A DNA stretch of 21,313 nucleotides from a virus: positions 1 to 21,313 of the IMG/VR virus record IMGVR_UViG_3300025131_000505, one strand, 5' to 3'. Position 1 is the stretch's first letter. Each line of letters opens with the position of its first letter. The notes under the pieces are model-generated. The model saw only the letters and a list, made by a program, of their open reading frames with translations, had not been told where the DNA came from and made no database searches. Positions 14 to 17,800 of this stretch are shown piece by piece. A program made the position numbers and the translations under genes.

Positions 14-1015
14 ATGAGCGACGAAGTAAAACAAATAGATAAAAATAGAAAAGCAGATGCCGTTCAGGCACTTATAGATGAACTGGCGGCTGGCGGTGAT
101 TTATATGAAGGATATTTAGGCTTTAACCGCATCACGCCAAATTTAAGCAATTTTAAAGGTCGCGTCGTCGCCACCAGCGACCACGGCGCAGCCGTTATAT
201 TAATAGATGACGATCCAATTTACGGCGCCGATGGTGCTGATTTTGCTTCTCGTGTTTCGATTGTGGCTGGTTTAAAGGGTCACGCTTTACATGAGGATGA
301 TTTGATTGAACAAGTTCAGCCAAACCTTGACGCAGCCGGCGTTTATGTTTCTCAGAGAGCAATAACACAAGAGCCATGGAATTTAGTTAGCCCAGTTGGA
401 AAACACAGTGAAGAAAATGATTTTGGAAAATCTAAGAAACGGCATGGCACTGGCAAAGGGACATGGTATAAGGCCCAATCAGATGTTACAGCATATGCAG
501 ATACAGTTCAATTGGTGGCTAGAACAGGCGGCATAAACTTATATGCCGGCGCCGTTGATAATAGTTTATCAAATGGAATTCTTAACGACGGCTTTCTTGG
601 GGTTAATTTAATTGCTGGAAACAGAATTGACGATTACAGTGCTGCCAGTACATTGAACATCAATGAAAATTATCAGGTACCTGCTTTTTCTTTGCAGCCG
701 CTAGTTAAAGGACATAGTTTGCAGAGATATTTAAATCGAGTAGCTAAACACTTGCAAAATCAAGCAAGTGAAAACTTTTCTAGAGAGATAAAAAATACCA
801 TAACAGAGTTGGGCGATATTGTTGCTTTACTTACTGGCTACACGTCCATACCCGCCGGCCTTATCAAAGTCGGCCTTCTCCTACCTAAAGTTCTGGGCAT
901 AATAAACAGCCTTGGAAAGGCAGGAACAGAAATGTACAATGCCACGCTCGCGGAAGTCAATTCGTCAGGCCCCTTCACTGAATCATATTTAAGCAGATAT
1001 AACAAGACAAATTAA
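14..1015 (+). CDS. uncharacterised phage virion-type protein, 333 aa
   Basis: A 333-residue acidic, soluble protein with no signal peptide and no cysteine. I do not recognise a named function. A central segment (about residues 165-179, VQLVARTGGINLYAG) is followed by a 'FLGVNLIAGN' strand and then by 'SLQPLVKG' before a helical C-terminal third. From memory, this order (a VAR-G-aliphatic strand, an 'I-AGN' strand, 'LQP-VKG', then helices) occurs in structural proteins of marine tailed phages. Residues about 270-310 are hydrophobic and rich in Gly, Leu and Ile, and may pack in a helical bundle. The start is backed by AGGTGA at 1-6. The stop codon abuts the next gene's ATG (TAAATG), so the two are probably translationally coupled. 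Being upstream of gp25/gp6 suggests a tail, hub or baseplate-associated role, but this is inferred from position only. Confidence 0.85.
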   Translation: MSDEVKQIDKNRKADAVQALIDELAAGGDLYEGYLGFNRITPNLSNFKGRVVATSDHGAAVILIDDDPIYGADGADFASRVSIVAGLKGHALHEDDLIEQVQPNLDAAGVYVSQRAITQEPWNLVSPVGKHSEENDFGKSKKRHGTGKGTWYKAQSDVTAYADTVQLVARTGGINLYAGAVDNSLSNGILNDGFLGVNLIAGNRIDDYSAASTLNINENYQVPAFSLQPLVKGHSLQRYLNRVAKHLQNQASENFSREIKNTITELGDIVALLTGYTSIPAGLIKVGLLLPKVLGIINSLGKAGTEMYNATLAEVNSSGPFTESYLSRYNKTN

Positions 1016-4000
1016 ATGGCAAAAAAAGCAAAAAGATGGTGTGGTGAAGAGAAGTGGGAATATATGCCCCCCAAGTATCTTCAAAAAGATGACAAGTGTC
1101 TATTTCTTAAATACTTGCCAAGTGCTGAACAATATAAAAAACTTTCACCAGACGAAAAATCAAAATTAGATTTTGAGTTAATCGCTTCTATCGCATATAT
1201 AAGAAGTATTAAGCCCGCCGGCTGTCCAGATACGCATTTAGGCAACAAAGTGACCGCTAAGTGCAACCCGTGGTTAGAAATCTCTTATTTCTTTAAGCTT
1301 CGAAGAGAAGAATATCAAGCTATTTCAACGCCAAAACAAAGAGCAAAGAAAGTAGAAAAAAAGCCAGTTGCCGCCACCGGCAATCCTGCCAAACAAAAAA
1401 CAACTAGCTGGTATGGTGCCGTCTTGGGGGCCGGCGGAACCTTTAATGCCGCCGTAGAAGAAGCTGTTGGCGGCGTAGTAACTGAAGCCGAGGAAGTTTT
1501 AGGAGAAGTTACTAGTAATGAATATGTAAAAGGCGCTATGAAATATGGATCCATAGCCCTTGCAGGATATGAAAGTTATGCCGATCATTATAATGATTAT
1601 GTGGATTATAAAGCCGCAAAACTTCTTGCTGCAGCCGGCCATACAAAGTGCAAATTTGATGATGACGGGCAAGGCGGCCTTATGGGGACAGACGCTGCAA
1701 CAAAGTGTAAGACTTCGGCAGACTGTCGGGCCCTAGGCTTGACTAACCATATTTGTGTTGGCGGCGAAGGGGAGTTGGGCGCTTCCGACGCTGGTGCCGC
1801 GGCCCTCGGCATACCAACTGCAGCGCTTGGCCGAGCCATTGAGGGTACTATTAGTTCTGGGTTCGCTAAAGCTAATCTAGAAGTGTGTTTGAACAAGTGT
1901 AGTGTGGCAGAAAGCCTCACCAAGCTTCACGCCGGCGCAGCGGTGGCAGCCGGCTTGGCCGCCGAGCATGATGGCGCCAAGTGCAGAGAGCACTGCCGCG
2001 AGGCCGCCAAAGGTGCTCAAGGCATTTGCCAACCCGGATGTGCCGCACCGACATTTATTGATTTTTTTGATCAGTCGGCAGATCCAAGGCCAGACTTTTT
2101 TGAACTCTTAGACAGCCTTACGAAGCCACCAGTAAACCCAGCAGCTTGTCTCGTTTCGAATTTAGAAAATTTCTTTTATGTTGTTCCGTGGCAATATTGG
2201 TTAATGAAAAATCTTGATAGTATGGTTGATACCCTATTATCAGAATCCGGCACGGAGATAGATAAATTAAATGATATAATAAAAACCCGCACTGTCTGTG
2301 GCACCGGAGGTGGTTTAGAATTAGACATTGAAACTATAAAAGCCGGCGCCCAATTGCCAAGCTTGACTGGTATTATTGACGGCCTTGAAATATTTCCTTT
2401 ACCAAGTCTTCCATATATGGAATGGCCACCCCCCGGCCTTCCTTCGATATTAAAGCTTCTTCTTGATCCTTTGCAGATCTTAAAAGTAATGATTATGGAT
2501 ATGATATGTTATTCGATATGTTTGATTATTAATCCAATCATTTATAGCGTTTTGGCTTTGATGAACGAAGACATAAAAAAAATTGAGAACAAAGCAGACG
2601 AAAATAGCAAAACCACAACGATTTCTCTTCCATATGGAACAAACATAAATATGAAAAAATCAGATGTAAACGAGTTTGTATCTGATGAAAATTTGCGAGA
2701 GGCATATGATTTTGGATATGTTGTTTTAGAAAATCCAAATGAAGCTACCGGCAAAACAAGTATTAATGCCAATCACCAACATGTATTTCAATTAGATCGG
2801 AACGGCAACGGTGTCGCTTTGGAAGTCTGTCATCCGATGTCAAATTATGTTTGTCATAAACACGAGATAATAAACTGGACTGTTCAATCTGGACGAAGCC
2901 CATGCTATCCAGATTGCCGTCAAAGATACGGCTACGATGGTGTTCCATCACACCTCCATATTATACCCCCCAATGCAGTTAATGCGCTGGTTAGAGAATA
3001 CATAAATGTGGTTAATTACGAAGAAAAAATGACCGTAAAAGATTTGATAACTCTTTTAGCTGGCGATGCATCGTGCTATGTAAAGGGCATCTTAATTACG
3101 ATCGGCAAACAAGAAAAATATAAAAGCTTGCAGTTGTATACCACCGGAAAGATTTTACAATTTTGGAAACATCTAGGCAACAATATGGACATATTTTCAT
3201 TTATTGAAAGTTCCAAATTAGATTGTACTCCGGATATTTGCCCTACTCCGATAGATGAAGAATTATTAAATCAACTTTTAGCAGAGATGGATAAGGTCTG
3301 CAGTTTGATGAAAAAGCCAGAAGATCTTCTTCCGATTACACCAGAAGACATTAAGGCTATGTCCTTGGCGATTGGCAACAAAATGTTGCAGGACGCCGGC
3401 TTTGGAGATTCGAAACTAGATCCAAACGACGAGGGGGCAATTATACCATCTAAAACAAGACTTACTAAGGCATTATCAGAGAAATGTGAATCGGTTGAAC
3501 GCCATTTGTGCAATTCGTTCGTGAACCCGTTATGCCTGATCCCGTTTGGTTTAACCACTAAGGATGCGTCCACCATCTTCGATGGATATTTTTCACACTT
3601 CGAAGGTGATATAGATGAGTGGATCGAAAAATATGGCGACAGCGAAGACACTGCGAATAAAATTGGCATGAACGACGACCTCCGTTACGAAATTGCCAAC
3701 GAATGGTGCGGCGGCAAAATCAGCGCCAAGGCCGCAGCTAAAAAGCGGGCCAAAAAGCAGGCCGCCGCCAAGAAGAAGAAAGAGGAAGAGGCTAAAAAAG
3801 GAAGTGATGCTGCAAAAGCCTCTGATAAAAAATGCCCACCCGGTATGAATGTTGGCGCACCCAAATCCAACAAGATCGCCGGTGATAAGCCTTGTTTGTT
3901 TGTTAATGCAAAAGGAGCACCATGGACTTCAAATGAGGTACATAAGTATAGCCATTCGTCGGCAGTTAAGTATGTTGACGTTGTAAAATCACTTGATATT

Positions 4001-4219
4001 TTGACCGGTACAGATGAGGACGCGCTGTACGCCACCATTGATAGCATGACGCCAGAAGAAAAAGACTGGGTCTGCCAGCGCGCTGTATTTACTAGTGGCA
4101 AGGGCATATCTGGTCCCAACAATTCAAAGTGGAGTTTAATGTGGAATATATGCGACGATTTAGACGAAGGGCTTGAACAAACCCTCTTGGCCGACAAGCT
4201 CGGGTGCAAATGTAAGTGA
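1016..4219 (+). CDS. cysteine-rich protein with HxH motifs, 1067 aa, putative virion component
   Basis: Not assignable to a named family. I count 36 cysteines in 1067 residues, against none in the upstream neighbour and two in the gp6-like protein. Visible parts: an N-terminal Cys/Lys region (1-125); an Ala/Gly/Cys-rich stretch (about 200-345) with close Cys pairs such as KCREHC; a strongly hydrophobic segment at residues 481-515, able to form one or two membrane or buried helices; three HxH motifs at 587-589, 614-616 and 646-648, with cysteines at 605 and 613; a Lys/Ala/Glu-rich tract (about 901-939), probably helical or disordered; and a Cys-containing C-terminal domain ending in CKCK. HxH motifs bind iron or other metals at phage spike and fibre tips (T4 gp37 and P2 gpV are known cases), so metal binding is plausible. 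There is no Shine-Dalgarno site; translation probably couples to the upstream stop (TAAATG). A spike, puncturing or membrane-contacting role is inference. Confidence 0.8.
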   Translation: MAKKAKRWCGEEKWEYMPPKYLQKDDKCLFLKYLPSAEQYKKLSPDEKSKLDFELIASIAYIRSIKPAGCPDTHLGNKVTAKCNPWLEISYFFKLRREEYQAISTPKQRAKKVEKKPVAATGNPAKQKTTSWYGAVLGAGGTFNAAVEEAVGGVVTEAEEVLGEVTSNEYVKGAMKYGSIALAGYESYADHYNDYVDYKAAKLLAAAGHTKCKFDDDGQGGLMGTDAATKCKTSADCRALGLTNHICVGGEGELGASDAGAAALGIPTAALGRAIEGTISSGFAKANLEVCLNKCSVAESLTKLHAGAAVAAGLAAEHDGAKCREHCREAAKGAQGICQPGCAAPTFIDFFDQSADPRPDFFELLDSLTKPPVNPAACLVSNLENFFYVVPWQYWLMKNLDSMVDTLLSESGTEIDKLNDIIKTRTVCGTGGGLELDIETIKAGAQLPSLTGIIDGLEIFPLPSLPYMEWPPPGLPSILKLLLDPLQILKVMIMDMICYSICLIINPIIYSVLALMNEDIKKIENKADENSKTTTISLPYGTNINMKKSDVNEFVSDENLREAYDFGYVVLENPNEATGKTSINANHQHVFQLDRNGNGVALEVCHPMSNYVCHKHEIINWTVQSGRSPCYPDCRQRYGYDGVPSHLHIIPPNAVNALVREYINVVNYEEKMTVKDLITLLAGDASCYVKGILITIGKQEKYKSLQLYTTGKILQFWKHLGNNMDIFSFIESSKLDCTPDICPTPIDEELLNQLLAEMDKVCSLMKKPEDLLPITPEDIKAMSLAIGNKMLQDAGFGDSKLDPNDEGAIIPSKTRLTKALSEKCESVERHLCNSFVNPLCLIPFGLTTKDASTIFDGYFSHFEGDIDEWIEKYGDSEDTANKIGMNDDLRYEIANEWCGGKISAKAAAKKRAKKQAAAKKKKEEEAKKGSDAAKASDKKCPPGMNVGAPKSNKIAGDKPCLFVNAKGAPWTSNEVHKYSHSSAVKYVDVVKSLDILTGTDEDALYATIDSMTPEEKDWVCQRAVFTSGKGISGPNNSKWSLMWNICDDLDEGLEQTLLADKLGCKCK
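2774..2959 (+). other. HxH/Cys-His cluster, putative metal-binding module
   Basis: Within the 1067-residue protein, HQH (587-589), CH at 605-606, CHKH (613-616) and HLH (646-648) fall inside 62 residues. Between the first two lies an 'LDRNGNG' turn, the kind of Asp/Asn/Gly loop common in beta-rich or calcium-binding folds. The spacing and the alternating histidines suggest metal coordination. The specific metal and fold cannot be told from sequence. Confidence 0.45.
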
Positions 4220-4295: not shown

Positions 4296-4670
4296 ATGGC
4301 TTCAGGTTTTTCAGTTAAATTACCATTGATATATGATAATGAGGATGGCCCATATCGTTTGACAAAAACTCTTGCAGAAAATATTAAACAAAATTTTAAG
4401 CATTTGATTTTGACGAACCCGGGCGAACGGTTAATGGTGCCGGATTTTGGAGTGGGGTTTAGTCGAATTTTATTTGAGAATTATACTAGTGAAACGATTG
4501 AAGAATTACAGGGGAGATTGTATGAGCAAACTGCAAAATATCTTCCATTTATTAATATAAGAGATGTGAAGACTTCATTTGAAGATCATGTACTACATGT
4601 ACAAATATCGTATATAATAGAATCTCTTAAAATCTCAGATGCTATTACGGTCGATTTAACTCAAAAGTAG
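4296..4670 (+). CDS. gp25: gp25-like baseplate wedge protein
   Basis: A 124-residue protein of the T4 gp25 / GPW_gp25 family (T4 gp25 is about 132 residues), which bridges the baseplate wedge and the start of the sheath in contractile tails. Its hallmark is visible: residues 41-52 read NPGERLMVPDFG, matching the family's 'T-x-GER-x-x-x-P-x-FG' core, in which the Glu and Arg are the conserved pair. N-terminal residues 1-20 hold 'LPLIYDNEDGPYRLTKT', the usual short strand leading into the helix. The protein is full length, with no frameshift. It lies nine bases upstream of the gp6-like gene, the expected partner, since gp25 and gp6 contact each other in the T4 wedge. The start at 4296 gives the family-length protein. 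Confidence 0.92.
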   Translation: MASGFSVKLPLIYDNEDGPYRLTKTLAENIKQNFKHLILTNPGERLMVPDFGVGFSRILFENYTSETIEELQGRLYEQTAKYLPFINIRDVKTSFEDHVLHVQISYIIESLKISDAITVDLTQK

Positions 4671-4679: not shown

Positions 4680-6467
4680 ATGGCAAAAAAATCACCTCCA
4701 GTAAAATTAACAAATAGAGATTTTTCTAGCATCAAGCAAGACTTAGTTGAATATGCTAAGGTCTACTACCCAGATACTTTTAAAGATTTTAACGAAGCTT
4801 CTTTTGGCGCTTTAATGTTGGATATGGTTGCATATGTAGGTGATATGCTTTCCTTTTACTTAGATTATCAAATGAATGAATCATTTATTGATTCTGCGAT
4901 TGAAACAAAGAACATTATTAAGCTGGCAAAGCAGCTAGGATATAGACACCCCGGGGCTCACTCTTCAAGTGGCAAGTGTGCATTTTATATTACAGTAGAT
5001 GCGAGCAGCGGCGCCCCCGCAAGCGAAAATGTGCCTATTCTAAATAAGGGTTCTGTATTTTCTGCAATGGGCGGCGCCGTCTTCACACTAGCAGAAGATG
5101 TTGATTTTTCACGATCAGGCGCTGATATTGTTGTAGCTGAAGTTAATACTGACGGCCAAGCAACTAAGTTCGCTTATAAGGCTTATGGAACTGTGATCTC
5201 TGGGAAAGTTGAAACTGAACTTATAACGGTCGGCGAATATGAAAGGTTTATGAAAATTCCTCTTTCTATTTCAGATGTGACTGAAGTTGTTTCCGTTATT
5301 GATTCTGAAGGTCATGAATTTTATGAAGTAGAAAACCTGTCACAAAATATTATTTATAAAGAAGTGCGAAACACAATTGATAGTACAGCAGAGCACGCCC
5401 CATATATTTTACAGGAAATATCAGTACCTCGCAGGTTTACAGTAGAACACACCATTGACGGCGACACCTTTTTACAATTTGGTTTTGGTTCAGAGGCAAA
5501 TCTAAAACAAGATAAATTTCCAGATCCATCAGATGTTGTATTAAATTTCCATGGAAAAAATTATTATTCTGATAGCTCTTTTGATCCTAGTATTTTATTA
5601 ACGACGGATAAACTTGGTGTGGTACCATCAAAGGGAAGAATGGCAATAACTGTTAGAAGTAATTCCGCTAGCAATGTTAATGCAAAAGCTGGCGCCCTCG
5701 CAAGTGTTATTAATGCTAATTTTACTTATAAGAATCCAAAATTAAGCACCACCGCTCGTTCTTCTATTTCTGTGTCTCTTGAGGTTGATAATGAAGAAGC
5801 GATCACTGGGCAAACAAAATTATTAACAACGGAAGAGATCAGGGTAAGAGCGTTAAGCGCCTACTCATCTCAGAATAGAGCAGTAACAAAACAAGACTAT
5901 ATGAGTTTGGTCTACAGAATGCCATCTAATTTTGGTTCTGTAAAAAGAGCAAATGTCGTACAAGACAAAAAATCTATAAAAAGAAATTTAAATTTATTTG
6001 TTATATCCGAAGATTCTAATGGTAAGTTGATAGAAGCTTCTTCTACTGTAAAGAACAATCTTCGCTCTTGGCTGAACAAATATAAAATGATAAACGACAC
6101 AGTTGATATTTTAGATGGCCGCATTGCTAATATTGGAATACAGTTTGAGGCAATAGGAAACCCAGAGAAAAATTCAAATGAAGTTTTGATGGTTTGCTTG
6201 AATGCACTAAAGAATGAATACAGTGGCCACTTCTATTTTGGCCAGCCATTTTATATTTCCGATATATACAGAATTTTAAATGACCTTCCAGAGGTGCTGG
6301 ATGTAAAGACAGTTAAGATTATAAGCCAGTACGGCACTAACTATTCTGGTACAGAGTATGAGGCAGAGGCAAATGTCTCAGTAGATGGAAGATTTATTAA
6401 AGTGCCAGAAGATGTTATTTTGGAAGTAAAATATCCCAACACTGATATAATTGGAGTCGTGGTATAA
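4680..6467 (+). CDS. gp6: gp6-like baseplate wedge protein (baseplate J family)
   Basis: A 595-residue homologue of T4 gp6 (about 660 residues), the protein that dimerises between neighbouring wedges and closes the baseplate ring. The N-terminal part has the family signature 'FNEASFGALMLDMVAYVGD' at residues 37-55, followed by 'LSFYLDYQMNESF', as in gp6 proteins of marine T4-like phages. The C-terminal baseplate-J-like half runs from 'KQDYMSLVYRMPSNFGSVKR' (404-423), through a strand-helix region with 'NLNLFVISE' and 'GRIANIGIQFEAIG', to a 'FYISDIYRILNDLPEVLDV' segment near the end. No break or insertion is visible. The stop overlaps the next start by one base (TAATG). It lacks the GCCGGC-rich pockets seen in other genes here, as expected for a conserved core gene. 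Confidence 0.93.
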   Translation: MAKKSPPVKLTNRDFSSIKQDLVEYAKVYYPDTFKDFNEASFGALMLDMVAYVGDMLSFYLDYQMNESFIDSAIETKNIIKLAKQLGYRHPGAHSSSGKCAFYITVDASSGAPASENVPILNKGSVFSAMGGAVFTLAEDVDFSRSGADIVVAEVNTDGQATKFAYKAYGTVISGKVETELITVGEYERFMKIPLSISDVTEVVSVIDSEGHEFYEVENLSQNIIYKEVRNTIDSTAEHAPYILQEISVPRRFTVEHTIDGDTFLQFGFGSEANLKQDKFPDPSDVVLNFHGKNYYSDSSFDPSILLTTDKLGVVPSKGRMAITVRSNSASNVNAKAGALASVINANFTYKNPKLSTTARSSISVSLEVDNEEAITGQTKLLTTEEIRVRALSAYSSQNRAVTKQDYMSLVYRMPSNFGSVKRANVVQDKKSIKRNLNLFVISEDSNGKLIEASSTVKNNLRSWLNKYKMINDTVDILDGRIANIGIQFEAIGNPEKNSNEVLMVCLNALKNEYSGHFYFGQPFYISDIYRILNDLPEVLDVKTVKIISQYGTNYSGTEYEAEANVSVDGRFIKVPEDVILEVKYPNTDIIGVVV

Positions 6468-8833
6468 TGGGTATAAAAAGATTTACAGCGTCAATTGATA
6501 CAACTATTACAGATGCTTATGCAGAAAATCTCTCTACTAGGGCGACATCTTCAAATATGGGCGCATCTGATATTTTAGAGACATTTTCAATTTATGGACA
6601 AAGAACGACTGAATCTTTAGAAAGAAGCCGAGTGCTTCTTAAATTCCCAATTGAAGAAATCACATCTTCCAGAGCTAGCGGAATTATTCCAGCAAGCGGC
6701 AGCGTCAGCTTTTTCTTAAAAATGTTCAATGCAGAACATTCCGAAACAGTACCTAGAGACTTCACTATGAGCGTTGCGGCACTAAGCCAATCGTGGCACG
6801 AGGGCCAAGGCTTAGATATGGAAGATTACTCTGATGGGGGCATCGGAGCTAGATCCCGCCGCGGCCCGGGCATTGGTGCAACATGGAATCACAGGTCAAC
6901 AGGTTTGTTTGCTTCTGCTTCTATTGATTTTGACGGCTCAGATGCTATTTTAAAGGTAGCTGATAATGCTTCACTTTCTTTTGGCGATGCCGCTGATGAT
7001 GAGGCTTTTTCATTAAGTGCTTGGGTTAAGGCGGATACTTTAACGGCAGAACGACCTATTATTTCCAAATGGAATACCAATAAAAGAGAATGGTATCTTT
7101 CGATCACTTCTGCTGGTAAAATTTATTTTAAAATATATGATGAATCACTCACCGTGGCTTGCGAACGACAAACCGCTGCATCAACAATTTCTACAGGCAC
7201 ATGGTATCACATTATTGCAACATACGATGGTGCCGAAAGCAGGGGCACAACATCAGATTGTTCTAGCACCGGCACTAAATGTGTTAATAATAATGGCTTA
7301 AAGGTGTACCTAGATGGCACACTTACAATCGATGGTACGGCTAATTCTTCTACGGCTTATGTTGCTATGGAAAATGATGATGAAACATTAAAAATTGGCA
7401 ACAGATATGATGTTGCCGCGGGAGCTAACAGGTATTTTGATGGTAGAATAACTGAAGTCGCGATTTGGGACAAAGAATTAATTCAGACAGAAATTAATCA
7501 AATTTATAACAAAGGTTGCCCAGTAAGCCTTCTTGGCTGCAACAGTGATGCAAGTTCAAATTTGGTTGCTTGGTGGCGCATGGGTGGCGATAAACAGGAC
7601 GCATTGGACAGTTCAGCATACACTTTTGGCACTGGCAATAGAATTGTAGATCAAGTAAGTAACCCAAACTTTATTGCAACTGGCAGCGGCTTTCAGGCTT
7701 CATCTGCCGATATCAAAACAGATACATATCCAAACGCATGCAGCTTTGCTGACAAAGCAAAGTGCTGGGATCAAGCAGGCGGTTCAATAGACACGGGATC
7801 GCTCAACACATCTTTCTTTACAAAGAGTTTTACAGACGGTATTGAAGATTTGGAAGTCGATATTAGTTTCTTGGTGGAAGAGTGGGCCAAAGATACAACT
7901 GGAAGCACCGGCCGTTATAATCACGGTGTAGGTGTATTTCTTTCCGGCAGCGCAGAGGATGGTGGAAATAAAAACTCTTACTACACAAAGAGATTTTTTG
8001 GAAGAGAAAGCGAATTCTTCTTCAGGCGCCCAGTCATTGAAGCTAGGTGGGATAGTGTCAAAAAGGATTCGTCAAGCAGATTTTACTTAAGCAGTTCGTT
8101 ATTGTCAACCGACAATTTAAACAAATTATACCTCTATAATATTGTTAAGGGACAAGCCAAGGGGATCCCCGGCTTGGCCACCGTTGGCGACAAAATTATG
8201 GTTACTTGCTACCAAAAGCTGGGAGGAGCGCCCATTACATTACCGCTCGGCGGCGGCGTCGTTACGGCTGATCAACACAATGTTACTGGTCAACATTTCG
8301 AAGCCGGCATATATACTGCTTCTTTTGCATTTACTAGTTCGAATGTACCTTCATTTTATGCCGTGTGGCATTCCGGGTCTGTTGCCCACGAAGGAACACA
8401 GTTTCATACAAGCTCCCTTATCACGGTAAAGAAGTATGATGCATCAGATTATAATCCTAAGCCATCTTATGTAACATCAATTTCTAATTTCAAGTCAGAA
8501 TATTCTAGAGTGGAAACAGCCAGATTTAGAATATATGTCAGAGAAAAAGATTGGAATCCAACTATTTATACAAAAGCAAAAACGGATCCCGAGACAAATA
8601 TTGTTGATTCAGCTTATTTTAAAGTCGTCCGACTATCTGATAATTACATTGTGGTGCCTTATGATACTGGCAGTGCCTCTGGGACGATGATGTCTTATGA
8701 TTCGCAAGGAAACTATTTTGATTTAGAAATGGGAATGTTTGAGCCAGATTACGCATATGGATTTAAATTCTTACTTAAAGTTAATGGCCAATTTGTGGAA
8801 CAAGAAGAAGTTCATAAATTTCGGGTAGAATAA
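6467..8833 (+). CDS. virion structural protein with inserted LamG-type domain, 788 aa
   Basis: A 788-residue protein following gp6 directly. The outer parts (about 1-145 and 430-788) resemble a structural protein I recall from marine phages. They include a beta-rich N-terminus with 'SWHEGQGLDMEDYSD' near residue 109, 'DGIEDLEVDISFLVEEWA', 'YYTKRFFGRESEFFFRRPVI' followed by EARWD, 'LYLYNIVKGQ' and 'AVWHSGS', then a C-terminal beta domain ending 'VEQEEVHKFRVE'. A LamG/concanavalin-A-like domain (about 146-375) interrupts the first domain, between a 'TWN' strand and a 'CWDQAGG' strand (433-439). Seven of its cysteines lie in and just after this insert. A GGAG at 6453-6456 sits ten bases before the ATG, which overlaps the gp6 stop. 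By position it may replace T4 gp7/gp8-type wedge proteins or anchor fibres; function is inferred. Confidence 0.85.
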   Translation: MGIKRFTASIDTTITDAYAENLSTRATSSNMGASDILETFSIYGQRTTESLERSRVLLKFPIEEITSSRASGIIPASGSVSFFLKMFNAEHSETVPRDFTMSVAALSQSWHEGQGLDMEDYSDGGIGARSRRGPGIGATWNHRSTGLFASASIDFDGSDAILKVADNASLSFGDAADDEAFSLSAWVKADTLTAERPIISKWNTNKREWYLSITSAGKIYFKIYDESLTVACERQTAASTISTGTWYHIIATYDGAESRGTTSDCSSTGTKCVNNNGLKVYLDGTLTIDGTANSSTAYVAMENDDETLKIGNRYDVAAGANRYFDGRITEVAIWDKELIQTEINQIYNKGCPVSLLGCNSDASSNLVAWWRMGGDKQDALDSSAYTFGTGNRIVDQVSNPNFIATGSGFQASSADIKTDTYPNACSFADKAKCWDQAGGSIDTGSLNTSFFTKSFTDGIEDLEVDISFLVEEWAKDTTGSTGRYNHGVGVFLSGSAEDGGNKNSYYTKRFFGRESEFFFRRPVIEARWDSVKKDSSSRFYLSSSLLSTDNLNKLYLYNIVKGQAKGIPGLATVGDKIMVTCYQKLGGAPITLPLGGGVVTADQHNVTGQHFEAGIYTASFAFTSSNVPSFYAVWHSGSVAHEGTQFHTSSLITVKKYDASDYNPKPSYVTSISNFKSEYSRVETARFRIYVREKDWNPTIYTKAKTDPETNIVDSAYFKVVRLSDNYIVVPYDTGSASGTMMSYDSQGNYFDLEMGMFEPDYAYGFKFLLKVNGQFVEQEEVHKFRVE
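6902..7593 (+). other. LamG / concanavalin A-like jelly-roll domain inside the 788-aa protein
   Basis: Residues about 146-375 show the usual LamG order: 'SIDFDGSDAILKVAD' (edge strand), 'FSLSAWVKAD', 'ISKWNTNKREWYLSI', 'GTWYHIIATYDG', 'GLKVYLDGTL', 'TLKIGNRYD', 'FDGRITEVAIWDKEL', then 'LVAWWRMGGD'. The tryptophans, the W-H-I-x-A-T-Y-D-G strand and the 'V-Y-L-D-G' turn are diagnostic. Such domains usually bind carbohydrate or other surface ligands; the ligand is not predictable here. Confidence 0.85.
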
Positions 8834-8835
8834 TA

Positions 8836-11800
8836 ATGAGCATTAAGAAGCTTTTTCACAACAAGAAACAAGAGATTGGTTCTGTAAAGGGGCCCGTCAA
8901 AGCATCACTTTCGAAGTTTACTGCCTCAATTGAATCAGCAGATTTAATTGAAGCTCACCAGTCAAGCTCTCTTATATTTGAACCAAATGTAAATTTTGAT
9001 AAGCCAGAGAACTTTGTTAAATTTGGCTCAGCAGAAAAATATTATTCTAATGCGATTAAAAGAATTTATAAGCAGTATCCATATGACGATACAAATGCAG
9101 CAAAAATTCAATTTTTAAATGGCCTTACCCCACTTGAAAGATATGTCTATGAACACAACTACCCAAGAACTAATGGGTTTGTTTTATTCAACACGCCGGC
9201 TCAAGACAGCTATACTGGAACGGCCGCCGCCTCTTACAAAAACTCTACTACTCACGAATATGTCACTTTTAATGGCTGGTCAGTAAACAGCCTATATGAT
9301 CTTTCAAATAAACGAGAGAACGCCCTTTCTATTGATTTTGCTAGCGGCTCTACGATTGAATGGTGGATGAAAAAACCGGGCGGCAGTACATACGGCGGCA
9401 GCGACAATCAGGTTATTTATGACTTAAGAGACAGTGAAAACTTAGCCCAGCTTATTGTTCACTTGCAGCAGGCTGGCACAAACGACCAGATTACTTATAA
9501 AATTAATTTTGGTAATGGCGCCGGTAGTTGGCAGAGTAGAATTGATTTAGATTTAAATACCGGTGTAGATTGGAGTGCTGATGAGACTTGGCATCACTAT
9601 GCGTTGGTTCAAAATTCATCTTCGGCGGAAGGATTCAGGGTGAGACTTTATGTTGATGGAGCTTTATCAGACGATAGATTTACTCAAGCCGGCGTAGATT
9701 TTGCCGGCAGCGCATACGACAGCGGCGAATTCGTTTTCCCCGGCTCTATAACTGGTTCGTTGCAAGGCACAATTGGCGCTTTAGGTGGTGCCGACAAAAC
9801 CGATGCTGCTTTGGGCTGGGGTAAATTATCAGCATCGATCGATGAATTTAGAGTTTGGAAGACTGAAAGAACATCGGAGCAAGTTGGAAGAAACTATATC
9901 GCGCCGGTTCACGGCGGCGTCATGTCATCTTCTGTTAATAGAGATTTGGGCGTGTACTTCAAGTTCAACGAAGGCGCCACGAATGAAAATACAGATGTTA
10001 CAGTTTTAGATTATTCCGGAAGAGTTTGTAATGGAACTTGGACGGGATATAGCACAACCCCCACCGGTGATGAGGCAATGCGCCAAACTGGTTCGGCGAT
10101 GGTGTTGTCTGGCAAAGTGGACCGCGAAGAAAAAGACCCGATTATTTATAGTTCACACGCAGATGTACAATCTTTAATAAGCGAAAAAGAAACATCTGGA
10201 TCACAATATGATCTTGAGAATTTTTCAAGTTTGCACAACTCAATGCCTAGGTGGATAACAGAGGAAGATGAAGACGGCGGCGAGCTAGGTCAAATTCTGC
10301 AAGTAATGGGCAGCTACTTAGATACTCTGCATGGCCAGATTGGTGAGTTCGTAAACATCAAGGAACCTTCATATCCAGTTTCCGGAAGCAAACCATATCC
10401 ATTTTCTAATAAGCTTTTGAACTCTTTAGGATTTGAAGTACCAGAAGCGTTCGTAGATGAAAACGTCTTTCAAAGCATTACATCCAGAGACAATAAAAGA
10501 ATTTTTGAAGAGAAAGTATACAATTTAAAACAACTAATTTATAGAAACATTTATAACAACCTTTCCTTTATCAACAAGTCAAAGGGCACTGAAAAGTCTT
10601 TTCGTAATATATTTAGATGTTTTGGCGTTGATGACGAGTTAGTAAATTTAAATGTTTATAGCAACAATGAAGTTTTCACTTTAGATGATGATTTTGCAAT
10701 TACATATACAAAAAGAAAAGCAATAGACTTTTCTGGAATTAGCGGCTCTCACAGATCGGCAACGATTTATCAATTTCCGGTGACGATGGGCGGATATGAT
10801 CACGGCTATATTTCCTCTTCGGCAAATAGTTATACGCCGCTGACAGCAGAAGCTGAAATCATATTTCCCAAGTTTGAGCATTTATCACAATCGATAGAAA
10901 CACTTACGACTTCATCATTGTTTGGATGCCACACATCAAACGCAAAGCATGCCGAGACAACTTATAGAAAAGCCGCGGCCGGCTGGGCTGGTGACTACGA
11001 TGTTGCGGCATATGCCATTCGTTCAGTAAACGATTCAGATGCAATTTATTTTCGACTTACCTCTTCAATGATGGGTTTTGATTTGACTTCTTCGGTGTTT
11101 CCCACATCTGCATCGAGCGGCGGCAGCAGAGTATATGACAACTCTAAGTGGAATTTTGCTTTCCGAGTCAAACCAGAACATTACCCGTTTGAGAACGCTG
11201 TAACCGCAGCACTTGGCGGCCTAGTACCGGCACAGAAATATATTAGAAAGACTGTTGAGTTCTATGGAATTAGTTCAATCGGCGGCCAAATAATACATGA
11301 GTTTGCAGTTTCGAAATCTATTAATCAAGATGAGCCGGATGGTGCCCAACAGGGCAGAGGCATTGGACACTTCTTAACTGGCGCTTACAAAAGATTTTAT
11401 ATTGGAGCGGAAAGAACTAACTTTACCGGCTCTGTTGTTAATAAATCTGATGTTAAGTTTTTAAATTTCCGAGTTTGGGGTGATTATCTAACAGACGATG
11501 AAATTAAATATCACGCTAGAGACCCGGATAACTTTGGCCGCTCAAGCCCTTATCAGAACACTTTTGTTTTTGAGACAGGCAGTGCCACCTATCCACTTGG
11601 CACCAACAGCGTGACTGATGAATACATTCCTAGAATTGACACATTGGCTTTGCACTGGGACTTTAACAACATAACGGGTAGCGAAGGAACAAGAATTGTT
11701 GAAGTGCTCGATAGGACATCTGGCTCTCTTGATTTAAAAACAAGGTATGTGGGCCAGTCTTATGGTGAGTTAATAAAGGCAAACCACCCCGGCAGTGGAT

Positions 11801-14800
11801 CATTTTTTGATTCCGGGGCTGATCCGTTTTCATTAGAGTTTGTTCCAACATCGCGACAAAGATTACCAGAGCAACTACAAAGCTCTGATATGATTAAAGT
11901 TTTAACTCGTGACCAAGCAGTGCTTAGAAAGAATATGAAACCAACGAACATGTTCTTTGCAGTCGAGATGAGCATGTATGATATTATATCTAAAAACATA
12001 CTCAACTTCTTTGCGGGTGTTGAAGACTTTAACAACTTAATTGGTGAGCCAGTAAATGCTTACAGAAGCAACTATAAGGCTATGGAGAAGCTAAGACAGT
12101 TGTTTTTTGAAAAAATTAACAATAGGCCAGATGTAGAAAAGTTTGTCAGCATGTATAAGTGGCTTGATTCTGCATTGGATGCTGTGCTTATAAATCTATT
12201 TCCCGCTTCTGCAGCATCAGCAGACAAAGCAAGAACAATTATTGAAAGCCATGTTCTGGAAAGAAATAAGTACAGGCATCGTATACGAGAGATTAATTCC
12301 GCCGGCTTTTCCGGGGATATCCCCTATGTTGAGCCGGCGAGGTTACAAGTATCACCAGAGACTAAAGTTCCGAGTAAACAATATGTGCAGAAGGCCAGAA
12401 AGCCTATGCCGACTTTAACAGAAGATGATCTTGTAGCTCCACCACTTCATACAAAAACGAATACAAAAGAAGCAAAAAAACAAGGGGATAAATTTCAAAC
12501 ACAGAAAGGCTCCGGCGCGGCCATTGCGTCATCGAAGAGTCAGACACATGATGCAAAAGATCCATATGGCTCAAAGCAGGGCCCAGATAAGGGTCTTGCC
12601 TCAAACAGAGTAACATTTATTAATAGCACTCCATCGACACAAATTATATTAGGAGTGTACACTCACGATGAATCAAAGGCGCCCGATTGGCATAGTTATA
12701 AGGAAGAGCCGTTTAATGCTCCATTTTCAATTGCTAAAACAGCTGCTTTAGATGACGCTATTAAATGTGCTACTGCGACAGATGGCACTGAAATTAGCAT
12801 TGCTGTGCCTGTGCCCATTTCTGATCACCCTGTACAAACGGGTGGTATTAAAATCAAAATTAAAACAAGGGCCTACGGCGCCGGCAACGCCGGCCCCGCA
12901 GCAAATGAGATTTTTGTCAAGATACAAGGTAGTCAAGCAGCAACTGCACAAATGATAGCGCATGCCATTAATGGTGAATTAGAACCAGCAGGAATTGAGC
13001 CGTTTGATCTTGATAAACAATTGGATCCGGACATTATATATGGTGAATATTGTTTAAGCGAAAATGATGCTAGTGGTTATGACCACGAACAAGGCGAGTT
13101 TAAGAGATCGGCAATCGGTGTCGCCGGCATAAGTGCTAGCGCCGGCGCATCAGCAAATGAATTTAAACTTACTGCAAATGCTGGTAGAGATGGTGCAAAC
13201 ATTATATTATCTGGAAGTGTAAACCTAAGAGCTTCAAGTTCGACGTTCGCCGGCGCCGGCGATGTCAACATAGAAGCGGATACATTTAGAACACAATTGT
13301 GGTCTAATTTCTTTGGATCGGCAAAAACTGCTGGTCCATTTACACTTCCAGAATTTCATTTAGGACTTGATATAAAAGACACAGATAACACAAAAGAAGG
13401 CAGAAAAACTGAATTAAATAAAAAATATGATGCACATAAGGCATCTTTTGTAGAAGGTGATGCCGCTAGAGACGGGTTGTTTATTGCATTTAACACTGGA
13501 AGCACAAATAAAGAAACTGGTCTACGCAGATTGCGCCCACTGCCCGGTGCTGAATCTGCGGCTAATAATTCGCGTTTAAAACCTGTGATTGTTTATGATC
13601 GCGAACATACAGGCGATAAAGGAAGCCAGAAAAGATTACCATTCACAGTTATGAGTTCTACTGTTGAAGGTGGTTATTCTTCTCAGTTGAATAAAGGAAC
13701 TGCCGCATCACAGTGGACAAAGGTTTCTTTAGAAGACAAACATAAAGACACTTATGGAGATTTTATTGATGCTCCAATGCAAGGCACTTGGACTCGTGAA
13801 AACGTTGGTGGAAATTTATACAGGCATAACAATTTGCTTGTTACAAATTCTATAGTTGCTCGTGGTAAATCTAGGGTTGAGGGATATCATATTACGATCA
13901 ACCCAAGCAAAAACTCTGCAATTCTTACAAACCCAAGAGTTTTTGAAGGAGCACACAACTCAATTTATGCAAACGGTGCGAGGCTAAAAGATGTAAAAAG
14001 ACCAGTAAATATTCAGAATCTAAGCTCCTCTGGCTATGCATTAAATAACACAACTGTTGCTGGCACTGGGCCTTCAAAAGAAAATTTTGGTTCTGCAGTA
14101 AATTCAAATTATAATAGAGACTATGAAGTAGTTTCTATAAACAATAGAAAAAGCAACAATAGATATTTTAGGACACAAGGCGGCGTTACGGCTTCACAAA
14201 CTGCTTTCGGCGCATACGGCCAGTTCTGGTGGGTTCCTGATACAAAGAGCTTTACGCCAGCAACTCTACACGCCTCTACTTTTAATAGGGCGGTTGACTT
14301 TATTAAACAAGACAGAGAAAACACCGGCAGCACCAAAACAGTTTTTGTTTCAAAGTTTTCTGCACCCGGCGGCGCAGCAGAACAAGGTGCTGGCTTCACT
14401 GATATTGAATCTAATCAGTATTCGCCATATAGTGCATTGCCATACAGAAACTTAGTTTTGAGAAGAGCATTAAATAAGGTTTGGTCTAGACCAGCCGGTT
14501 CGCAGGGAACTGATAGCTTGTTTGGAACATCTTATGCTAATTTCCACAAAACACAAAGAAATGATGGCGTAAAGATTACCGGCTCATCTATGGATCCATT
14601 GACGAGGAAGATGGACAAAGACAGTTTGTGGGTTTCGCACGCCATCCCTCGTAATGATTTAGGCTATACTTGGATTAGAAAATCTTGGATTGGAACAATT
14701 AATTCAGATCTGACTGTGTCTTCAACTCTAGGAAATGTTTCTCATATAACATCTAGCGATTTCGCGGTGTTGCTTGGGTTTACTTCTTCGGCAGACACCA

Positions 14801-17800
14801 TAACATTTGTTTCGGGTGGCGAGATTGGGGCTGCATTTCATACTGCCCCCGCACCCGGGAATCAGACGGTTGGCATACAAATTGGAAGAACAACGATCCA
14901 TAGCTCTATGGTTAATTTTACTCCGACTGACTTTGTTGGAACCAATATTCTTATATCTGAGCCGTTTTCTGCTAGTCAAGCATTAACAGGACCGCTTGCG
15001 ACACCAGCAGGCCAGCTTGTTTATACAAGCGGTGATAATATTTTGGGATATCCGGGCGGCGGCAATCGTCTTAACAATTATTTAAATCCGAACTTCGTTG
15101 CTAGCTTTGCACAAGCCGCTGGCTGGTCTCCAAATGCCGATCAGGGCACAGAACCATATGTTTTTAATATGCTTATGTTAAATAGAAATGGCCCATATGG
15201 ACACCCAACGTGGAAGCAAATAAGAACCGGGGAACATAAAATAGCTCGATGGCTTCGCAAAAAGAATATATATCAAAATACACGAACCGTTTATAACAGT
15301 GAAGCTCAAAGGTGGGAAGACAAAGTAAGCGAAATTAGACAAAGCCCAATAACTTCGAAGTTTAAGCCTGTGAGTCAGGGATATAAAGATTTTTCAGTTA
15401 AGTATTCATTTGGAAACGATTTTCACTTTTTTACAAAAACTTATAACTCTGCTTCTAACAAACTTATTACAAACGAAAGAGAGTGGGGCATCTCGCCGGA
15501 TTATGAAAAGTCTGCGCTGTATGAAGAAAGCGACACTAGTTGGACAATGTTGAAATACACAGAGACGGTATTTCCGAAAGATGAAAACGTCTATAGAGAC
15601 CGCTGCAGAAAGAAAACAAGATATGATTTCTTCTGGGATGATAGCTTAACAAGTAGAGTCGCACAAGACGCTGGTAAACTTGAAACAGACGGAATGAAAA
15701 ATAGCCAAGGTATACATGTGGGTAAAAACAAAGGCGGCGCCGCAGCCTCTGATTCATTTATGTCTGTGTGGCCAATGGATATGCAAACTTCATCGGCCGT
15801 TACAAAAGAGAAGTCTGGTGAATTAATGAGAATGGATAATGTGTATAATGCAGACATATCAGATCATTTTGCTATGCCAGATAGTTCTAGTGCAAAATTT
15901 GGCAGAGCTTATGGCGCCTGTCGCCCTGAAAATTTAGTCCACCAGCAAGCTGGCAAGGGGCCCTTCTTTAACAATTATCGTGATTATTCATGGGACACAA
16001 TTTTAATTGGCCAAGATTATTCGCAGTTATCAGAATTTAATATTACTAAGCATATCAACAATGTTATTATAAATTACCGTTCAGATTATTATCAAGATTT
16101 TTATAATTTAGATTTAACAGGTAGTAGTATTTTATCATCAAGTACAAAAAGCTTTTTAGAAACATATAGCAACGCAGAAGAATTTGTGCATTTAGACAGA
16201 GTGACTGATTTATATGGTGCCCCAACTGAAATTTCAATCACATTTAAGGCTATTAAAAAGCTCTTACCAAAAGAAGGGTTTTATCCTGTACAAAGAACAA
16301 TACAGTTGGCAAGAGAATTTTCAGGTTCTTATTCGGAAGAAAATCCAATTATCGGCATAAGTGCACCAGAGGGGGAACTTGGAGTGTGGGAAGGCCCATT
16401 TACATCCAGCAACCCAGCTAAAACTGGTCACTGGAGAACAGTGCTTGAGCCATTCTATGCGCCCGGCATCATGTACAATACAATTAAAGCCGGAATTGCT
16501 GTTGATTATCCAATTATTGATCAAAGAACAATGGATACTGATGAATTTACAAGAACGACCGGATCGGCCGGCCCCCCAGCGACAACGCACGGGCCCAATC
16601 CTACGATGCATTGTTCTGCTTCATATACTTCAAGAATGCCATTTGAGGCAATTATTGAACCCTATCTGTGGTCGCAAAAAATAATAGGATCCGCTAGTGT
16701 AGGTATTAATCCATACAATGCGCCGAATGCGGAACATTTACCCAAGAGTGTTATGAGGCTATATGATATGGATCCAGAATTAATTATCGACAGTACTGGA
16801 ACTATTCAACAATCAAATGGTGTTTATGAAACACACGCTCATAACTTTTTTGCAGAAGTGCCAAATTTCTTTTTAGAGAACGGCCTATCAGTTATTAAAT
16901 CTAAGCCAGAATCGACATGGAAATTCCCCGGCCCGTTATCATCTTCGGCTGATGGAGTAAAAAAGTGGGAAATGGAAATTTTTATAGAAAAGCCAGATAT
17001 GTGGTTTATGCACGATGGTATGGGCTATTTCGGTCACTGGCCCTATGTACATCATCTTCCATCTTATTATGGTATGTATCCATGGGACACTTGCAAAGAG
17101 TCGGGTGCCAGTGTTAGGCCCTGTATAAACAATACCATCGCAAACGGCCGCCAAAACAAATATAACAAAGCATCGTTGAGAATCACATTTGACCCAACAG
17201 CTATTTTTGAAAAGTATCCTGAAAGATTAGCAAGAGGAACATTTACATTAGATGATATTATTAATAATAGTGTCGTTGAATATAGTAATCTTCGCTGGGA
17301 GCAGGCCGGTGCCGATGCTAAAACGGGGATGAGCTTAACTGCGAGTGTAGAAGTTTTTAATATTGTCGGCACCGAAGCGGGTAAAAATCAATGGGCAATT
17401 AATACAAAATTTGAAACACCAATGTATAATTTTGCCAAATGCGATGCGACTCCCGCGTATGTGGTTGGTGGGTTTGCCAATGCTAACTGCGCCACCGCCA
17501 GCGTTCCAGATATGCAATATGGCGGAACATATAGGGGAATATGGCATCAGTATGCCCAAATTCCATCTCCTAATGCTTACGATTTGCTTCGCTTTGGCGT
17601 GAAAGACGCGATGCCACGCCAAGCCGCAACAAATGTCAGCAGGACCGGCTCTTTGGCAGATGCGTGCGGATTTTCTGTAGCACCAATTGAATTAGGAAAA
17701 ATTGCAAAATCAAAACTAATTTACGAAGGCGTGGCTGTAATACCATTCTATACGGATCAAGACACCAAAGAGGAAAAATTCTTTGAAATTCCCGTCGCGA

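Follow-up and report, generated by a model that had tools for sequence, protein, structure and literature searches.

P0001, a 1067-residue protein encoded on viral DNA directly upstream of the baseplate genes gp25 and gp6, is probably a cysteine-rich baseplate protein of a contractile tail, into which a putatively metal-stapled, single-chain module with six histidines has been inserted. It would represent the compact form of a protein whose slot follows the spike/needle genes and precedes gp25/gp6. Its core may be pictured as a cysteine-rich scaffold held by disulphides or metal, one loop of which would have received a module of roughly 70-80 residues containing three HxH motifs. The window (the whole stretch of DNA that was analyzed) comprises the entire 21,313-base virus record, which is probably a fragment because one open reading frame runs off its end. 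The source viruses are uncultured contractile-tailed phages, probably marine ones. The features of P0001 and its immediate neighbours are as follows.

14..1015, + strand: P0002, 333 residues, conserved as the neighbour upstream of the slot
1016..4219, + strand: P0001, cysteine-rich protein of the baseplate cluster (1067 residues, 36 Cys), placed by slot synteny
1649..2041, + strand: N-terminal Cys-bearing region (residues 212-342), mostly an insertion relative to the homologues
2141..2722, + strand: core part A (residues 376-569), common to five homologues, with invariant C378, C428, C498 and C502
2450..2563, + strand: hydrophobic helix region (residues 479-516), around C498xxxC502
2723..2962, + strand: inserted triple-HxH module (residues 570-649), with His 587, 589, 614, 616, 646 and 648
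2963..3343, + strand: core part B (residues 650-776), common to five homologues and weakly to giant slot proteins too, with invariant C687, C737, C742 and C762
3716..3832, + strand: Lys/Ala-rich linker (residues 901-939), lineage-specific
3821..4216, + strand: C-terminal Cys-bearing region (residues 936-1067), shared by the window and the related locus L005 only
4296..4670, + strand: gp25-like sheath initiator/baseplate wedge protein (Pfam GPW_gp25, E 2.4e-10)
4680..6467, + strand: gp6-like baseplate wedge protein (PHROG 219, E 7e-26), the synteny anchor

The preliminary description had singled out P0001 for its cysteines, for three HxH motifs inside 62 residues, for a 35-residue hydrophobic run and for a Lys/Ala-rich tract. 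The count of 36 cysteines was reproduced and corresponds to 3.37% of the protein, compared with 0-1.0% in the remaining six proteins of the window; the pairs in residues 212-342 include CLNKC, CREHC and CQPGC. The HxH motifs (H587-Q-H589, H614-K-H616 and H646-L-H648) span exactly 62 residues, an arrangement matched by 2 of 20,000 composition-preserving shuffles of P0001. A hydrophobic stretch is present as well, but it is looser than described: residues 479-516 are broken by D484, K490 and D495, the longest uncharged part counts 22 residues (496-517), and the maximum 19-residue Kyte-Doolittle mean is 2.11. The Lys/Ala-rich tract was found at about residues 901-939, though the closest homologue has none.

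Both genes directly downstream of P0001 were confirmed as gp25 and gp6 by the profile matches listed above. Anchoring on gp6 retrieved 17 related viral loci in a first scan, while 80 were listed in a second. Of about 75 related viral loci, most have this slot between a gene of about 330 codons and gp25/gp6, which agrees with the earlier assignment of P0001 to the virion region. From these loci, 75 slot proteins (67 distinct, a few probably mispicked) were gathered by a simple length rule; they range from about 600 to 3000 residues, and in some loci (e.g., L006, L028, L029 and L030) at least two genes occupy the slot. Where enough flanking sequence is available, the usual order is a late-sigma-like gene, a gene for about 100 residues, the spike-slot gene, a gene for about 310-390 residues, the slot protein, gp25 and gp6. 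The late-sigma-factor-like assignment derives from a single PHROG match (E 4e-5). Two genes upstream of the slot, a VanY domain is encoded in L007 (E 6.5e-11) and a weak DUF2272 match was found in L002 (E 0.004), and a chitinase-annotated gene lies near gp25 in Microcystis phage Mel-JY01. The window itself starts just before the 333-residue gene, and the spike gene is located outside it.

The best cultured relatives of gp6 are about 31% identical. No match to P0001 was detected by BLAST among the Immutovirus slot genes (L022), and tblastn searches of GenBank phages with P0001, P0002, P0008, P0014, the L036 giant protein and module fragments returned no usable match. As GenBank phages yielded no P0001 homologue, the presence of P0001 in the virion, which we infer, rests on synteny.

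Further downstream, the protein encoded after gp6 (6467-8833) carries a LamG/ConA lectin-like domain (PF13385, E 2.7e-21) at residues 176-344, whereas its counterparts in L002 and L006, with 475-525 residues, apparently lack this domain. The 3612-residue giant tail protein at 8836-19674 ends in DUF3721 (PF12518, E 2e-10; residues 3553-3583), a small Cys-bearing domain. In L005, gp6 is split into two adjacent reading frames (6995-8782), probably by an assembly frameshift.

Five slot proteins are homologous to P0001; their E-values against the core profile are about 1e-41 or lower. The closest, from L005, has 926 residues, 29 cysteines and three HxH motifs and is 45% identical to P0001; the 602-residue protein of L006 can be aligned with residues 293-569 and 650-776 but has nothing that corresponds to the part between, and those of L028, L029 and L030 join the family by profile. 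The six-way alignment contains 26 invariant columns, nine of which are cysteines: the eight in the well-aligned core given above for parts A and B, and C231 in a poorly aligned region. Between P0001 and its L005 homologue, 25 of the 29 aligned cysteines are kept versus 43% of the other residues; the p-values for cysteine conservation (3e-6 by Fisher test, and 1e-8) are somewhat optimistic, because alignment scoring favours Cys matches. The features of P0001 are thus more than chance. The hydrophobic helix is also kept in the relatives, where its 19-residue maximum is about 1.3-2.1; in several of them it is charged, and it is borderline for a membrane span.

The eight cysteines that all six divergent homologues retain, in spacings that include CxxxC and CxxxxC, might bind an iron-sulphur cluster or zinc and so form the functional core of the protein, the HxH module being a dispensable add-on. 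Lambda gpL offers a comparison, as it likewise has conserved cysteines in a protein of the tail-tip region, and an iron-sulphur cluster is coordinated in tail tips of the gpL type, as cited in PMC11945409. No sequence match links gpL to P0001, and Pfam, PHROGs, NCBIfam and PDB gave no similarity to gpL or Fe-S families, the sole PHROG exception in the gpL/tail-tip test being a 16-residue match at E 0.014. Disulphides, moreover, account for the cysteines equally well, and we consider an Fe-S or zinc core unlikely. The CYPDC stretch also matched PHROG 8845, which was put down to chance.

The HxH stretch of P0001 is an inserted domain, since four of the six aligned proteins lack exactly the residues from about 570 to 649. 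Within it, the three HxH motifs are accompanied by D594 and G597-N598-G599, that is, by a D-x-x-GNG element after the first HxH, and by CYPDC at 630-634. An iterated profile located the same module in P0001, in its L005 homologue and in the giant proteins of L002 (with its near-copy L001), L003, L050, L060, L065, L083, L099 and L101. In the L030 virus, the slot protein lacks the module, which is found instead near the C-terminus of a 369-residue protein adjoining a homologue of P0007. The six histidines, the aspartate and GNG are invariant in all ten members of the module family and in all 11 representatives when head and portal-like proteins are included, while only a subset carries a CYPxC pair, located after the second HxH and before the third. 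With six HxH histidines invariant in 11 representative relatives, the earlier suggestion of metal stabilization gains support in the form of a probable, predicted metal site.

Recurrence of the module was assessed by scanning viral contigs for DNA encoding only GHxH-x4-D-x2-GNG, which gave 98 distinct sites among the matches listed; this set contains redundancy and was chosen by the leading Gly, so its counts hold for this sample alone. At 71 of these 98 listed sites, two further HxH follow downstream in frame, compared with 2.0% of shuffled tails, and 70 of the 80 listed viral sites with a second HxH have exactly three. In bacterial genomes all three HxH occur at 5 of 120 sites, and pattern matches there are mostly chance. 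Relatives of fused head protease-capsid polyproteins account for 45 of the 71 triple-HxH sites among the matches listed. Further sites of this listed set fall in two other S78-related proteins, two giant slot proteins and one portal-like protein; the rest are mixed or without assignment, and the nine labelled 'tailfib' include matches resting on HxH repeats alone. In L281 (1810-4560) and L234 (5231-8233), the module lies between Peptidase_S78 and Phage_capsid in a single fused reading frame (Pfam).

A protein of L296 (1-1278, - strand) carries the triple-HxH module together with a D12-class DNA methyltransferase domain, and the module is therefore not confined to structural proteins. Proteins of about 600 residues with a membrane-like N-terminus, a similar GHRHRxxLDxxGNG and further HxH motifs were noted on the bacterial contigs L144, L148 and L201, two of which have planctomycete titles. 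Among named families, positions about 119-188 (of 199) of PHROG 15223 match the module (E 6.5e-4 to 5e-3) in the portal-like protein, a head protease and one other protein. This family is named for a protease and the module is not described in it; the giant baseplate proteins match it weakly (E 0.014 at best). YmaF (PF12788) and YHYH (PF14240) are, like the module, short and rich in repeated His motifs, but match it no better than noise (E 0.11 and 0.13, from a single member each).

A module that moves between unrelated structural proteins could be a metal-free domain for protein-protein docking or host attachment, with the histidines serving in packing or pH sensing. Exactly three HxH pairs per unit and six histidines that stay invariant across very different proteins, however, form the pattern to be expected of a metal site, and a metal-free role appears distinctly unlikely to us.

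A model of an 89-residue module fragment reached a mean pLDDT of 80.9, with the second HxH in a strand and the first and third at single-residue bridges. Foldseek found no match to this model at E<=0.001 in PDB or BFVD; the top BFVD row was A0A1B1IWS3, a 1288-residue protein (probability 0.99, TMq 0.50, E 0.12). VIA-align returned four rows (Z 2.2-2.5), of which two were the phi92 piercing protein, including the top row (Z 2.5 at 5.0 angstroms); these rows were treated as noise. The module thus has no confident known fold by Foldseek or VIA-align. The AlphaFold2 model of full-length P0001, built from six aligned sequences, was unusable (pLDDT 38).

The relation of P0001 to the giant slot proteins was examined by comparing its core, without the HxH stretch, to profiles of slot proteins of at least 900 residues with hhalign. 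Core-region matches recurred in one middle region of the giants, the best with a probability of 89.7% (L036), several at 60-85% and many lower. The giant proteins (L002, L036, L060, L099 and others) share with P0001 the slot upstream of gp25/gp6 and the weak core matches in the same order, and several share the triple-HxH module. They differ in their length of about 1600-3000 residues, in a lower cysteine content (the median of all slot proteins is 0.7%) and in the placement of the module, which, where present, lies towards the C-terminus rather than in mid-core. On these profile matches, the compact core and the giant slot proteins are probably distant homologues.

HxH metal sites are already known in phage virion proteins. 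Trimeric spikes and fibres hold iron in an octahedral site of six histidines, to which each chain contributes one HxH (PMC6116203), and HxH motifs in the T4 gp37 tip, P2 gpV, the phi92 spike and R-pyocin fibres are, like the module, part of virion proteins (PMC6116203). Whereas these trimers assemble six histidines per metal ion from one HxH of each identical chain, a single P0001 chain carries all three HxH together with an intervening D-x-x-GNG, giving six histidines in total for a predicted metal. No sequence similarity was detected between the module and the trimeric proteins, and P0001 matched no solved HxH spike or fibre among PDB sequences.

PAAR and gp5.4 spike-tip proteins are small, His-rich, metal-binding phage parts encoded near spike genes. 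Unlike these, the P0001 module is an internal insertion in a large protein and is also present in head proteins. No PAAR profile, nor any Pfam family at E<=0.1, was found in P0001, and the remote homology search against PAAR, spike and needle proteins that the preliminary description had proposed brought up no similarity by sequence in Pfam, PHROG or PDB. Rows for purple acid phosphatase and scorpion toxin were rejected as chance.

Iron-binding HxH motifs have been reported in marine phage tails and proposed as iron ligands (PMC11705849), and the module might mainly load virion iron for host entry (the Trojan Horse or Ferrojan scheme) rather than act as a structural staple; copies in head protease-capsid and portal-like proteins would not face a receptor, and we judge this role improbable. 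Most improbable is the envelope-piercing or channel-forming part suggested earlier, with a hydrophobic helix that enters the membrane and an HxH stretch that works like a spike tip or PAAR protein: P0001 does lie near spike genes and gp25/gp6, HxH iron sites occur in the P2 and phi92 piercing spikes (PMC6116203) and the helix is kept in relatives, but a piercing role is made unlikely by a module that is optional in the family (missing in four of six) and common in head protease-capsid polyproteins, with a further copy in a portal-like protein, and the lack of similarity to piercing families, the noise-level phi92 row and the charged, borderline helix of the relatives also speak against it.

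A baseplate protein with an inserted metal staple is therefore the reading we retain as probable, and one metal ion held by six histidines of one chain would be its simplest form. The six invariant histidines, contributed by three short strand segments, would jointly hold a single divalent ion (Fe2+ or Zn2+), making the module a single-chain counterpart of the octahedral six-His site of trimeric spikes and fibres. The ion would staple a small beta knob and may thereby strengthen or order the surrounding virion protein during assembly.

More tentatively, and with rather more doubt than belief, the module could be a mobile and general building block of tailed-phage virions, in which a metal staples or times assembly. 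Inserted into baseplate, portal-like and head protease-capsid proteins, it would let one chain do the work of three. The literature searched yielded no description of a recurrent single-chain triple-HxH module common to baseplate and head proteins, and nothing on HxH in connection with prohead proteases or on YmaF in phages; such absence is no proof of novelty.

The signature HxH-x4-D-x2-GNG followed by two more HxH could serve to annotate many unnamed phage proteins, and the module, at about 80 residues, is a small and testable protein. Should each chain bind one metal ion, the virions of many uncultured phages would contain metal as an integral structural component, both in the head and in the tail. 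This, if true, would have consequences for our view of virion assembly and stability, and for proposals that marine phages are iron ligands.
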